Assembly: GCA_028685275.1 (NCBI GenBank)
Contig: JAQUEG010000011.1
Location: 1-10,864 of the forward strand
Source: Bacilli bacterium
GTDB taxonomy: Bacteria > Bacillota_I > Bacilli_A > RF39 > UBA660
DNA: 10,864 nucleotides
Reading direction: 5' to 3'
Shown one piece after another: positions 1,190 to 7,974 of this stretch; positions within the stretch are counted from its first letter, which is position 1; each line of letters begins with the position of its first letter. Both the position numbers and the translations under genes were made by a program. The notes under the pieces are model-generated. The model was not told where the DNA came from and did no database searches. It worked only from the letters and a program-made list of their open reading frames with translations.

Positions 1190-1218
1190 TTGACCAAAAA
1201 AAATTGTAATGCTATAAT
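1190..1218 (+). promoter_or_regulatory. Sigma-A type promoter of nrdDG with extended -10
   Basis: The -35 is TTGACC (1190-1195), followed by a 17-base spacer and a perfect -10 TATAAT (1213-1218). The -10 is extended by TGC (1210-1212). Transcription should start near 1225, leaving a leader of about 40 bases before the nrdD start. A 10-base direct repeat, AAATTGTAAT, flanks the -10 (1201-1210 and 1220-1229) and could be an operator. I see no clear NrdR-type palindrome pair. Confidence 0.75.
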
Positions 1219-1265: not shown

Positions 1266-4200
1266 ATGATCGAAACAATTATTAAACGTGATGGTAGAAA
1301 GGAGAAATTTAATTACGAAAAGATTAATAATGCTATTTACAAAGCAATTATTAATACAAGAGAAGGTTTGACCGAAGAAAAAGTTAAAGAAATGTCTGAA
1401 TTAACTACCAACATTATTGTCTTTAAATTAAATGAAAAAAATACTGAAATTATTCACTTAGAAGAAATTCAAAATGCAGTTGAAGAAACGTTAATGGTCT
1501 TAGGAATGACTGATGTTGCACGTAGTTATGTTCGTTATCGTTTTCAACGTGAACAAATGCGAAATGATAAAGAAGCAAGTATTAGTGTCGAAAAAATGAT
1601 GAGTAATTACATTACACAAGATGATTGGTTAGTAAAAGAAAATGCTAATATGGATTATTCACTACAAGGTTTAAATAATTATATTGTTAGTGATATTACA
1701 AAAAACTTTTGGTTAAATCATATATTTTCAACGGAACAAAAATTAGCGCATCAAAATGGAGATTTACATATTCATGATTTAGGTCTTTTATCAACTTATT
1801 GTTGTGGTTGGGATTTAGAAACAATATTACTAAAAGGATTTAGAGGAGTAAAAAATAAAGCCCAAACAAAACCCGCTAAACATTTAAAAACAGCTCTAGG
1901 ACAATTAGTTAATTTCTTTTATACTTTACAAGGAGAAGCAGCAGGAGCGCAAGCTGTTTCTAATTTTGATACTTTAGTTGCTCCTTTTGTACGTTATGAT
2001 AATCTATCTTATAAAGATGTAAAACAATGTATTCAAGAGTTTATTTTTAATTTGAGTGTACCAACAAGAGTTGGTTTTCAAACCCCTTTTGTTAACATTA
2101 CTATGGATTTAAATGTATCTCCTTTATATAAAGATAAACCAATAATTATTGGTGGCAAATATATGAATGAAACATATTCTGACTTTCAAGAAGAAATGAA
2201 TATGATTAATAAAGCTTTTTGTGAAGTTATGACTGAAGGTGATGCTAGTGGACGTATTTTTACATTCCCAATTCCAACTTATAATATAACAAAAGATTTT
2301 GATTGGGATAACGAAGTAGTAAATAATATTATGGAAATGACTAGTAAATATGGTATCCCATATTTTGCTAACTTCATTAATAGTGATATGAAACCTGAAG
2401 ATTCTAGAAGTATGTGTCTTTTTCCAGAAGAAGCTCTTTTTATTAAAAAAGACAATAAAATTGAAAAGCGAACAATTGAAGAAGTATTTGAGTTATATAA
2501 AGGAGAAAAAATTGATAACGAGTGGTATAACTGTAATGATAAGATAAAAGCAATGTCATTAAATGCAGAAACAGGTAAACTAGAATGGACTAATATAAAA
2601 AGATTTTTAAAGGTTTATGATAACAAATTAATTAATATTAATACAAAAGATGGAAAATTAATGCGCGTATCACAAAATCATTTAGTAGCAATTTATAATA
2701 AAAATGGAATTACTACTAAAATGGCAAAAGATATTACGAAAGAAGATTTTTTAATTGTATTAAAAAATGCTTCTAAGACACTTAATAAAAATAATTTAAA
2801 TTCAATTAATCCAGATTTTGTTTGGCTTATGGGATTATTTATTGCAGATGGCAATTATTTATATGACCGTCGTAATAATGATAAAGAAAAATTAAGAGGG
2901 TTACAAATTACTTTTAATAAACAAGATGAAACATTAATTAATAAAACTAAAGATGTTATTAAAAATTTATTCGATTATGATATGAAATTTATAAATGATC
3001 CAAGATATGAAAATTCGTTAAGAGGATATATATATAATACCAAAACAGCTGAAGATTTCTTTTATAATTGGAATATAAGTAAATATAATACTTTACCTAA
3101 ATGGATATGGTCTGCTAATACAGATATTATAAGAACTTTCCTTAAAGGCTTTTTTGATGGTGATGGATATGAAGTAGGTAAAGAAATTCATATAAATGAT
3201 GAATTATTAGCCGAAGAAATTAATCTTTTAATGCAATTAATTGGTATTAGTACTACATATAGAGTAAGAAGTAATTCACAAGTAATTAGAATTCAACATG
3301 TATTAGATAGAAGTGCTAAAGGTAATGTAACTATAAAAGATTCATTACATAATTTAATTCCAGAATTTTTATTAAACCAAAAATTTGTTAAAAATAAAGA
3401 AAATAAAAATCTTTATCAATCGTATGGTAATAAAATGGTGGGATTATCTACCATTGATCGCTGGAAATTAAATAATGATAAAATTGAGTGGCTAAGAAAG
3501 GCTGATTTTGCTGTTGTTGAAATTGAAGATATTAAAAAAGATTGCTTAAATTATGAACAAGTTTTCTATGATATTGAATTAGAAAAAAACCATTATTTTG
3601 TTCATTCAAATGGTAATATTACTCATAATTGCTGCAGACTGAGACTTGATAATAGAGAATTACGAAAAAGGGGAGGCGGTTTGTTTGGTGCTAATCCATT
3701 AACTGGTAGTATTGGTGTAGTAACTATTAATTTACCAAGATTAGGTTATCTTTATAAAAATAAAGAAGATTTTTATGAAAACTTAAAAAGATTAATGGAT
3801 ATCGCTAAAAGTGTTTTAGAAACAAGACGAAAAATAATTGAAAAAAATACTCATACTGGTTTATATCCATATAGTCGTTTTTATCTTAGTGAAGTATATG
3901 AAAGATTTGGTGAATATTGGAAAAATCATTTTAATACTATTGGTATTAATGGAATGAATGAGTGTATTCGTAATTTTTATAATGATTCTGATAATATTAC
4001 TACTGCAAAAGGCCAAAAATTTGCTAATGAAATATTAGATTTTATGCGTGAAAGAATTCAAAAATATCAAGCTAATGGTGATTTATATAATTTAGAGGCA
4101 ACTCCAGCTGAAGGTACTGCTTATCGATTAGCAAAATTAGATAAAAAACTATATCCTAATATACTAACAGCTGGTAAAGAAGAACCATATTATACTAATA

Positions 4201-4580
4201 GTTCGCAATTACCGGTTGGGTTTACCACTGATTTATATGAAACTTTAAAATTACAAGATTCATTACAAACTAAATATACTGGTGGTACTGTTTTGCATGC
4301 TTATCTAGGAGAAAGAATTAAAGATCCAGAAGTTACTAAAAAAGTAATAAAAACCGTATTTGAAAATTATGAGTTACCATATTTTTCAATTACACCAACC
4401 TTTTCAACATGTGATGAGCATGGTTATATTGATGGTGAACATTTCACTTGTCCAATATGTGGTAAAGAAACAGAAGTATGGACTAGAGTTGTTGGCTTTT
4501 ATCGTCCAGTTCAAGCTTTTAATAAAGGTAAACGAGAAGAATATAACGAACGAGTTACATATGTAGTAGATACGGTGTAA
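1266..4580 (+). CDS. nrdD: Anaerobic (class III) ribonucleoside-triphosphate reductase with in-frame intein
   Basis: NrdD reduces ribonucleotides to deoxyribonucleotides by glycyl-radical chemistry without oxygen. The 1104-residue precursor contains a 405-residue intein (384-788); removal leaves a 699-residue enzyme, normal for the family. An N-terminal ATP-cone, the allosteric nucleotide-binding domain, covers about 3-95 (IIKRDGRKEKF; then DVARSYVRYRF). The barrel includes GDLHIHDLGLLSTYCCGWD (around 170-185). After the intein come CCRLRLDNRELRKRGGG and GANPLTGSIG. The probable thiyl-radical cysteine is in the Cys789-Cys790 pair (384-385 after splicing); that assignment is by analogy with the MGCR motif of other NrdDs. 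A zinc-ribbon-like site has Cys1049, His1052, Cys1062 and Cys1065. The glycyl-radical motif VVGFYRPVQAFNKGK holds Gly1077 (672 after splicing). The start at 1266 has AAGGAGAG at 1251-1258. nrdG follows after four bases. Formate- versus redoxin-dependence cannot be settled here. Confidence 0.97.
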   Translation: MIETIIKRDGRKEKFNYEKINNAIYKAIINTREGLTEEKVKEMSELTTNIIVFKLNEKNTEIIHLEEIQNAVEETLMVLGMTDVARSYVRYRFQREQMRNDKEASISVEKMMSNYITQDDWLVKENANMDYSLQGLNNYIVSDITKNFWLNHIFSTEQKLAHQNGDLHIHDLGLLSTYCCGWDLETILLKGFRGVKNKAQTKPAKHLKTALGQLVNFFYTLQGEAAGAQAVSNFDTLVAPFVRYDNLSYKDVKQCIQEFIFNLSVPTRVGFQTPFVNITMDLNVSPLYKDKPIIIGGKYMNETYSDFQEEMNMINKAFCEVMTEGDASGRIFTFPIPTYNITKDFDWDNEVVNNIMEMTSKYGIPYFANFINSDMKPEDSRSMCLFPEEALFIKKDNKIEKRTIEEVFELYKGEKIDNEWYNCNDKIKAMSLNAETGKLEWTNIKRFLKVYDNKLININTKDGKLMRVSQNHLVAIYNKNGITTKMAKDITKEDFLIVLKNASKTLNKNNLNSINPDFVWLMGLFIADGNYLYDRRNNDKEKLRGLQITFNKQDETLINKTKDVIKNLFDYDMKFINDPRYENSLRGYIYNTKTAEDFFYNWNISKYNTLPKWIWSANTDIIRTFLKGFFDGDGYEVGKEIHINDELLAEEINLLMQLIGISTTYRVRSNSQVIRIQHVLDRSAKGNVTIKDSLHNLIPEFLLNQKFVKNKENKNLYQSYGNKMVGLSTIDRWKLNNDKIEWLRKADFAVVEIEDIKKDCLNYEQVFYDIELEKNHYFVHSNGNITHNCCRLRLDNRELRKRGGGLFGANPLTGSIGVVTINLPRLGYLYKNKEDFYENLKRLMDIAKSVLETRRKIIEKNTHTGLYPYSRFYLSEVYERFGEYWKNHFNTIGINGMNECIRNFYNDSDNITTAKGQKFANEILDFMRERIQKYQANGDLYNLEATPAEGTAYRLAKLDKKLYPNILTAGKEEPYYTNSSQLPVGFTTDLYETLKLQDSLQTKYTGGTVLHAYLGERIKDPEVTKKVIKTVFENYELPYFSITPTFSTCDEHGYIDGEHFTCPICGKETEVWTRVVGFYRPVQAFNKGKREEYNERVTYVVDTV
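2415..3629 (+). mobile_element. Intein with LAGLIDADG homing endonuclease inside NrdD
   Basis: This 405-residue insertion (precursor residues 384-788) interrupts NrdD between Ser-Met383 and Cys789. It begins with Cys384 (block A, CLFPEEALF) and has a block-B-like SQNH at 469-472. A two-motif endonuclease follows: LMGLFIADG (521-529) and LKGFFDGDG (625-634 region), about 100 residues apart, both keeping the catalytic acidic residue. Block F reads VFYDIELEKNHYFV, and block G ends in His787-Asn788 followed by Cys789 as the +1 nucleophile. All residues needed for standard class 1 splicing are therefore present, and joining the flanks restores the normal NrdD sequence SMCCRLRLD. The frame is intact throughout. 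Its base composition looks as AT-rich as the host gene, so recent transfer from a distant source is not obvious by eye. Confidence 0.95.
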
Positions 4581-4584
4581 TAAT

Positions 4585-5247
4585 ATGATATATGGAATTA
4601 ATGCTAATTCATTTATTGATTATCCGGGCGAAATATCTTTTGTAATTTTTACTGGTGGTTGTAATTTTAATTGTCCATATTGTCATAATTCAGATATTGT
4701 CAATAAAAATACTAAAATTTATTCTGAAGAAGAAATTTTAAATATGTTAAAAGAACGGCAAAAATTTATTGCTGCAGTTACTATTACTGGTGGTGAACCA
4801 ACTATTTATGGTGAACAATTAATTAATTTAATTAAAAAAATTAAAAACGCAGGTTATAAAATAAAACTAGATACTAATGGTAGTAATGCTAGTTTACTTA
4901 AAAAAATAATCGATTCTAATTTAGTTAATTATATTGCTATGGATATTAAAAATACTTTTGCTAAATACCAAATAACAGCAGGTAAAAAAATAAATATAGA
5001 CGAAATAAAGAAAAGTATTAATTTAATTGAAAATAGTAAAATAGAATATGAATTCAGAACCACTATTAATAAAACAATGCATACTGAAAATGATATTAAA
5101 GAAATAATTTCTTACATAAAAGATATTAATAAATATACTTTACAGCCATATCGTTATAGTAAGCAACAAATAGTTGATACTGATTTTGAAGCATGGACTG
5201 AAACTGAAATTGAAGACATTATGAACAAATTAAAAGTATCCGTTTAA
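4585..5247 (+). CDS. nrdG: Anaerobic ribonucleotide reductase activating protein (radical SAM)
   Basis: This activase uses a [4Fe-4S] cluster and S-adenosylmethionine to generate the glycyl radical on NrdD. The 220 residues begin with the SFIDYPGEISFVIFTGGC signature. The cluster ligands are Cys26, Cys30 and Cys33 (CNFNCPYC), followed by the SAM-contacting GGEP at 69-72. Its length and start match the longer activase subfamily (about 190-230 residues, TIGR02495-like as I recall it) rather than the roughly 155-residue E. coli NrdG. The start lies four bases after the nrdD stop with only a weak ribosome site (GGTG), which suggests translational coupling. The last codons form the left arm of a terminator hairpin, and the stop overlaps the stop of the convergent gene by four bases. 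Other radical-SAM roles are possible for this subfamily, but adjacency to nrdD makes the assignment strong. Confidence 0.92.
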   Translation: MIYGINANSFIDYPGEISFVIFTGGCNFNCPYCHNSDIVNKNTKIYSEEEILNMLKERQKFIAAVTITGGEPTIYGEQLINLIKKIKNAGYKIKLDTNGSNASLLKKIIDSNLVNYIAMDIKNTFAKYQITAGKKINIDEIKKSINLIENSKIEYEFRTTINKTMHTENDIKEIISYIKDINKYTLQPYRYSKQQIVDTDFEAWTETEIEDIMNKLKVSV

Positions 5248-5267
5248 TGGATACTTTTAATTTTTTT
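5227..5267 (+). terminator. Hairpin terminator shared by convergent nrdG and DUF192 genes
   Basis: A perfect 15-bp inverted repeat (5227-5241 with 5249-5263) encloses a 7-base loop (5242-5248). On the plus strand a run of seven T ends at 5267, so it is a strong terminator for nrdDG. On the minus strand the following T-run is poor, so it would act less efficiently there. The loop GTTTAAT contains the stop codons of both genes. Confidence 0.85.
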
Positions 5268-5636: not shown

Positions 5637-5843
5637 ATGCAAAAAATCACTAATAAAGGACAAGCTTTAATTGAATACATTTTAATTGTATCATTAATAA
5701 CAGTAGTTGCAATTGGCATTGTAAATTTATTTGGTGGTTATTTAAAAGACGCGATTACTAAATCTTCTTGTTCAATGTTAGATAAAACTTATATCGAAGG
5801 AGATTCGCCTGGTAAAGGGTATTGTAGTGATGAAGAAGAATAA
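5637..5843 (+). CDS. Flp-type (type IVb) prepilin-like small protein
   Basis: This 68-residue protein has the class III (prepilin) signal layout. A short basic leader ends at Gly8 (MQKITNKG), then the mature start QALIEY with Glu13 as the conserved Glu+5. A hydrophobic helix runs to about residue 33 (ILIVSLITVVAIGIVNLFGG). This matches Flp/Fap pilins in size and pattern. The polar tail carries Cys45 and Cys63 and ends in Asp-Glu-Glu-Glu; the two cysteines could form a disulfide outside the cell. The predicted fate is cleavage by a prepilin peptidase after Gly8 and assembly or anchoring in the membrane. No peptidase, ATPase or TadB/TadC gene lies in the window. The start has AGGAGA nine bases upstream. 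It is monocistronic, with its own promoter and terminator. The family call is good; its role as a pilus subunit is inference. Confidence 0.82.
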   Translation: MQKITNKGQALIEYILIVSLITVVAIGIVNLFGGYLKDAITKSSCSMLDKTYIEGDSPGKGYCSDEEE

Positions 5844-7524: not shown

Positions 7525-7974
7525 ATGAAGAAAATTATAACTTTATTTACAGTATTAATACTTACAATTTTCTTAGTTAGTGGATGTACTAGTAATAAAA
7601 AAATTGTTTCTTGTCATTTAACAGAAGAAGAAGATGAAGTAACTATTACTACTAATTTAAAATTTACCTACAAAAATGATAAACCTGAAAATATGTCTTA
7701 TGATATGAGTTTTAATTTTAAGCAAACTGATGAAGAAGGAAGTCAATTTTTTTATGAAATGTTTGATGAAATTTATAATGATTTGGCAGAACAAGAAGGA
7801 TTTACATACGAATCAAAGTTAAAAGATGATCAATTAAAAATATTGGTTGATATTGATTTTAACAAAGCAAAAAAATTAGATTCATTTTCTAATATTGATA
7901 TTACCAAAATCAATGAAACTTCAATTGATGATTTAATTAACAACTTAGAACAAGAAGGATTTACTTGTGATTAA
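7525..7974 (+). CDS. Predicted lipoprotein of unknown function
   Basis: I do not recognise this family with confidence. The 149 residues start with a lipoprotein signal peptide: Lys2-Lys3, a hydrophobic core and the lipobox Val-Ser-Gly-Cys21. The mature protein would be lipid-anchored at Cys21 on the outer face of the membrane. The remainder is acidic and contains alternating polar/hydrophobic strands (for example EVTITTNLKFTY) followed by helical stretches, with Cys30 and Cys148 as the only other cysteines. These lie near the two ends and could form a disulfide. It faintly recalls the YehR/DUF1307 type of small lipoprotein, but this is weak. The ribosome site AAAGGAGG (7512-7519) is strong. 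A TATAAT at 7497-7502 could give it a promoter of its own but lacks a -35, so it probably also rides on the ruvAB transcript. Confidence 0.8.
   Translation: MKKIITLFTVLILTIFLVSGCTSNKKIVSCHLTEEEDEVTITTNLKFTYKNDKPENMSYDMSFNFKQTDEEGSQFFYEMFDEIYNDLAEQEGFTYESKLKDDQLKILVDIDFNKAKKLDSFSNIDITKINETSIDDLINNLEQEGFTCD

Follow-up and report, generated by a model that had tools for sequence, protein, structure and literature searches.

The window analysed here, a stretch of 10,864 nucleotides that makes up the whole of one contig (JAQUEG010000011.1) in the draft genome of a Bacilli bacterium, very probably carries a mobile intein that is complete, has a LAGLIDADG homing endonuclease of two motifs and separates a Met from the leading Cys of the CCRL motif encoded by nrdD, the gene for the class III (anaerobic) ribonucleoside-triphosphate reductase. 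The nrdD frame (1266..4580, plus strand, as are all features below) is open over 1104 codons plus a stop and reads across both intein junctions. The 1104-residue precursor contains an ATP cone and an NRDD domain (PF13597, 1.8e-189; PF03477, 4.9e-18) and matches TIGR02487 over its cut-off; these domains and a neighbouring nrdG gene mark it as a class III NrdD.

The N-extein (1266..2414; 383 residues) ends in PEDSRSM and is followed by the intein (2415..3629; 405 residues, C1 to H404-N405) and by the C-extein (3630..4580; 316 residues), which begins CCRLRLDNRE and whose Cys+1 is the first Cys of an SCCR-type motif. Without the intein, the two exteins add up to 699 residues (383+316) with the junction SMCCRLRLD. 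An insert of this length and composition, whose excision restores that junction, had been claimed in an earlier sequence-only reading of this DNA and was borne out by the translation, the intein models and the fold; the same reading had described an open frame and two intact LAGLIDADG acidic residues, and these were likewise found. The insert is stop-free, in frame and absent from homologous host proteins, it has the Hint fold and all splicing residues (C1, H89, H404, N405 and C+1), and chance does not explain it. Taken alone, the intein matches PF14890 (2e-17), PF14528 (8.4e-8) and NCBIfam TIGR01445, all over cut-off, while the intein C-terminal model TIGR01443 passes its cut-off in the full protein only and not in the isolated intein. 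The N-terminal part of the Hint splicing domain (2415..2819; residues 1-135; TIGR01445), with a border drawn from an alignment of full and mini-inteins of Neomoorella, includes the block B His89 (2679-2681). It is followed by the LAGLIDADG homing endonuclease domain (2820..3437; approximately residues 136-341; PF14528), which Neomoorella mini-inteins occupying that site lack and which has a fold match in PI-PkoII. This domain holds two dodecapeptide motifs with an acidic residue, WLMGLFIADGN (2823..2855; Asp145) and FLKGFFDGDGY (3138..3170; Asp250). The C-terminal part of the splicing domain (3438..3629; residues 342-405), assigned from the TIGR01443 match of the full-length protein and from conservation, ends in YFVHSNGNITHN.

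The novelty of the NrdD site that the sequence-only reading implied was not borne out. A homologue search with the intein yielded 95 proteins, one of them the window's; 90 allowed both junctions to be placed, and all 90 read M/C...N/C (slashes mark the junctions), while three of the remaining five had no C-junction that could be found and two no N-junction. A scan of genome contigs gave nothing with a single-sequence query and ten organism-named loci with an alignment-based query, all ten with the same junction, one of them archaeal and the others spanning several phyla of bacteria; they are titled Patescibacteria, Nealsonbacteria, Bacillota, Thermoanaerobacterales, Halanaerobiales, Moorella stamsii, Thiotrichaceae, Parabeggiatoa, unclassified bacterium and Bathyarchaeote, the last being only 32% identical. 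Five other NrdDs, whose exteins share 74-82% identity with those of the host, hold a same-site intein as well. The SCCR-type site of NrdD is thus widely used by one intein family across several phyla; what is new here is the host and the local picture, the insertion site itself being already in use elsewhere. Carriage of the intein by a phage or plasmid was considered and rejected: tblastn found no match to it in 50,697 phage records or in 72,556 plasmid records, one scan of IMG/VR found none, and another returned a single weak locus (L048; 20% identity over intein residues 130-405) that is probably unrelated.

Across 63 full-length inteins, a set that includes the window's and a few mutual duplicates, C1, H89, D386, H397 and N405 are invariant and H404 is present in 62; position 145 is Asp in 55 and Glu in 8, and position 250 is Asp in 60. 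What these residues do is general background on inteins and LAGLIDADG enzymes, and no residue that splicing or endonuclease catalysis would be expected to require is missing from the window intein. Its intact motifs suggest, as the sequence-only reading inferred, that splicing and homing may both still be active. Several observations on its relatives weigh against so simple a view. In a slightly different set of 63 inteins, ten lack Asp at one LAGLIDADG position and none at both, eight of these departures being Glu at the first position and two a non-acidic residue at the second, so that endonuclease decay does occur in this intein family. Furthermore, 34 of the 90 locatable inteins measure 250 residues or fewer and hence have no full endonuclease (54 exceed 380 residues and two lie between). 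It is a real, if unlikely, possibility that the endonuclease of the window intein is dead despite its kept motifs and that only splicing is active, given that endonuclease-less mini-inteins occupy the same site even within Neomoorella thermoacetica, where two NrdDs (P0015 and P0069) have identical exteins over 705 positions and inteins of 404 versus 199 residues, the shorter without the endonuclease part. Against this stand both catalytic Asp residues, the full-length domain and a good structural model, together with ratios of nonsynonymous to synonymous substitution (dN/dS) in two related intein pairs of 0.183 and 0.125 for the endonuclease part (0.110 and 0.156 for the splicing part), which place the endonuclease part of those pairs under purifying selection. 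In a third related pair the synonymous sites were saturated, and it should be noted that all pairs come from other inteins, the window intein being in none. The Neomoorella pair, from one species and with the same exteins, offers in its own right a snapshot of endonuclease loss, and its length difference places the domain border in the window intein at about residues 136-341.

The empty sites that the sequence-only reading had proposed to look for in relatives are abundant: among the best 120 matches listed for the C-extein, six have the intein (the window's own included) and 114 are uninterrupted, each of the 114 reading straight through the junction. An extein tree of 85 rows was built from the window, 35 of the 94 other interrupted proteins, 41 of the 114 empty ones and eight loci from the family or class. 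In this tree the sister of the window is an empty NrdD (P0097; support 98), 89.5% identical over 697 positions, and an empty (P0098) and an interrupted NrdD (P0004) are both 82% identical to the window exteins. Interrupted NrdDs are scattered among empty ones in the host NrdD clade, and a single clade of interrupted NrdDs was rejected whether six, five or three of them were grouped (p-AU from an approximately unbiased test, 8e-52, 5e-8 and 6e-5, respectively). This test kept 33 of the 85 rows, dropping 17 empty ones (near-copies and outer rows), the eight loci and 27 other interrupted ones, and its groups were picked once the first tree was known, which makes the p-values a guide only. Patchy presence, the trees and the intact motifs lead us to propose that the window intein was probably acquired by homing, and the simplest account of the family as a whole would be repeated homing within and between lineages, with losses possible.

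Two points weigh against that account. The four nearest relatives of the window intein share 66-69% identity with it, too little to name a donor or to call the gain recent, and the tree alone does not separate gain from loss. An intein that is old, vertically inherited in the NrdD clade and precisely lost many times, with homing no longer active, would be an unlikely alternative. The comparison of intein and host phylogenies foreseen in the sequence-only reading is divided on it. The clade formed by the window intein and those of P0003-P0006 (98/92) roughly tracks the host NrdDs, and parsimony, with seven changes between interrupted and empty states on the 85-row tree, cannot tell gain from loss; however, the interrupted NrdDs are scattered, and P0031 lies in the same host clade, yet its intein falls outside the five. 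Vertical descent would also require repeated exact loss, including in the sister P0097 and the next neighbour P0098. Elsewhere, moreover, the intein moves alone: a Patescibacteria and a Halanaerobiales locus (L038 and L045) have inteins 82% identical and exteins only 57% identical over 663 positions, which points to intein transfer across phyla, against a median over 1819 pairs, with rows of the partial protein P0007 to be ignored, in which the intein is 8.4 points less alike than the extein. Base composition adds that the Moorella stamsii intein has 38% guanine plus cytosine (G+C) within a 53% locus; in the window, the difference between intein (23.4%) and exteins (28.5%) is too small to argue from. 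Acquisition by homing remains the reading we prefer for the window intein.

Inteins had been expected to be unusual in such a host, and the counts agree: the family sample has this intein in 1 of 193 genomes, the order sample in 1 of 385, the class sample in 1 of 267 and the phylum sample in 1 of 392; these samples overlap, and their single positive is always the window's own genome. Counting the window's, 9 of 243 family genomes have an intein-splicing match that passes the Pfam cut-off, and repeated Hint-like segments account for some of these; inteins are uncommon in this family. A C-extein match at E <= 1e-60 occurs in 57 of 386 family genomes, and the window's NrdD subtype in eight, again including its own. 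In the other seven, with C-exteins 72-84% identical, the junction is continuous, although one lies in a frame shortened to 529 residues.

The draft genome (873,839 bases in 166 contigs, 82% complete, 2.8% contamination) and the presence of the NrdD subtype in so few family genomes raise the question of an assembly chimera or a contaminant contig, which we regard as very improbable. The open frame spans both junctions, the exteins are 89.5% and 82% identical to uninterrupted relatives, and a same-family genome (G145) has the same NrdD subtype with the closest C-extein (84%) among the 386 genomes searched, its nrdD being empty. RuvB, encoded on the same contig, is 82% identical to its best family match and 68% to its best match outside (60 genomes), so that the contig agrees with its family. 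Two details count on the other side, namely that RuvB identities within the family fall as low as 67%, which overlaps the highest value outside it, and that two family genomes have no good RuvB match. The idea that the insertion is an ordinary NrdD domain has negligible probability: the insert is absent from all 114 uninterrupted relatives, the intein models and the fold match identify it otherwise, and we found no point in its favour.

Other inteins came to light in the same family. In G145 (L076:1192-3495), a different LAGLIDADG intein splits a Walker A-like motif (GETRSGK/C...HN/SLIGL) in a protein of no assigned identity. In another genome (G028; L077:643-3813), an intein without a Pfam LAGLIDADG match lies in a UvrD/PcrA-type helicase (VVGDNDQ/C...HN/CIYSWRG), and a match similar to this helicase intein was seen in a further one (G163; L078). 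In a fourth (G187; L080:1-1623), a single open frame of 540 residues at the end of a contig holds three intein-splicing stretches, unusually many for one gene.

The position of the intein bears on how the enzyme would depend on it. When the uninterrupted P0097 is aligned with the NrdD of Thermotoga maritima (4coi), its CCR falls on C329-C330 (numbers counted from the alignment), and the intein directly precedes the first CCR cysteine, which doubles as its Cys+1. According to PMC4493059, the C329A and C330A substitutions each abolish the activity of the Thermotoga enzyme, whose crystal structure shows the motif at a distance from the active site. Unspliced NrdD should hence be inactive, and splicing is probably obligatory, because the intein splits a motif with two cysteines essential in Thermotoga NrdD. 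We propose that the precursor would be translated whole, that Cys1, present as expected, would attack upstream and the chain be passed to Cys+1, and that cyclisation of Asn405, also present, would leave the joined 699-residue NrdD. An inactive unspliced enzyme would protect the intein against any loss other than its precise removal, while the endonuclease would cut intein-free nrdD alleles at the conserved site and repair would copy the intein in. Since Cys+1 is one of the two essential cysteines of an oxygen-sensitive enzyme, splicing could conceivably be redox-dependent, an oxygen switch releasing active NrdD only anaerobically; we consider this a long shot. If splicing were conditional, a genetic parasite would be tied to oxygen control of DNA-precursor synthesis. 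More broadly, the window extends the host range of a multi-phylum intein family at one essential enzyme site to an anaerobic bacterial lineage with small genomes, and its empty-site relatives at 82-89% identity make it a clean local case in which to test how inteins are gained and lost.

Four bases 3' of nrdD lies nrdG (4585..5247; TIGR02495, 2.1e-62), which encodes the NrdD-activating radical SAM enzyme, and the two form an nrdDG pair. A promoter-like site (TTGACC-17-TATAAT with an extended -10; 1190..1218) lies upstream of nrdD, and a terminator-like hairpin of 17 pairs followed by a T-rich tail (5227..5263) lies at the nrdG end; both are consensus matches only. The region has 34 promoter-like sites against a shuffle mean of 37.7, so no excess, and two terminator-like hairpins against 0.8 in shuffles. 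An Rfam scan of the window at gathering thresholds gave no match. Further downstream, a 68-residue protein (5637-5843) has weak Flp/Fap pilin and class III signal peptide matches below the Pfam cut-offs, and a 149-residue lipoprotein-like protein downstream of ruvB (7525-7974) has a DUF1307 match barely over cut-off.

Among known inteins, PI-PkoII differs from the window intein in its host protein, which we take to be a DNA polymerase. The window intein nevertheless matches the fold of the PI-PkoII intein homing endonuclease (2cw7) at 18% identity (VIA-align; good model). The NrdJ-1 split intein (8ubs) belongs, by its name, to another ribonucleotide reductase (RNR) class, and as a 150-residue split-intein fusion it has no room for an endonuclease. 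Ca. Thiomargarita nelsonii has been described as carrying an intein in its anaerobic RNR, a TIGR02487 protein, and its inteins, that of dnaE excepted, are said to hold a LAGLIDADG-like or homing endonuclease domain (PMC4853749); the protein family is that of the window host but the lineage is different. PMC3653736 likewise places inteins in the anaerobic RNR gene nrdD, but of phages, with a putative one in Clostridium phage c-st and the remnant of one in Lactococcus phage 949. Our literature searches, which left subscription literature mostly outside, recognised no paper on inteins at the exact NrdD site. The same-site inteins in the NrdDs of Neomoorella thermoacetica, Moorella stamsii, Halanaerobiales, Thiotrichaceae and Patescibacteria are in other host lineages and are 54-64% identical to the window intein; Neomoorella differs further in having mini-inteins as well as full ones at the site, and for some same-site relatives protein length and Pfam matches suggest a second intein. 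Yet all share with the window intein the insertion point M/C...HN/C and a full length of 402-405 residues, and the Neomoorella intein also shares its endonuclease signature, e.g. DPRYENSLRGYIYN, GKEIHIND and QVIRIQH.
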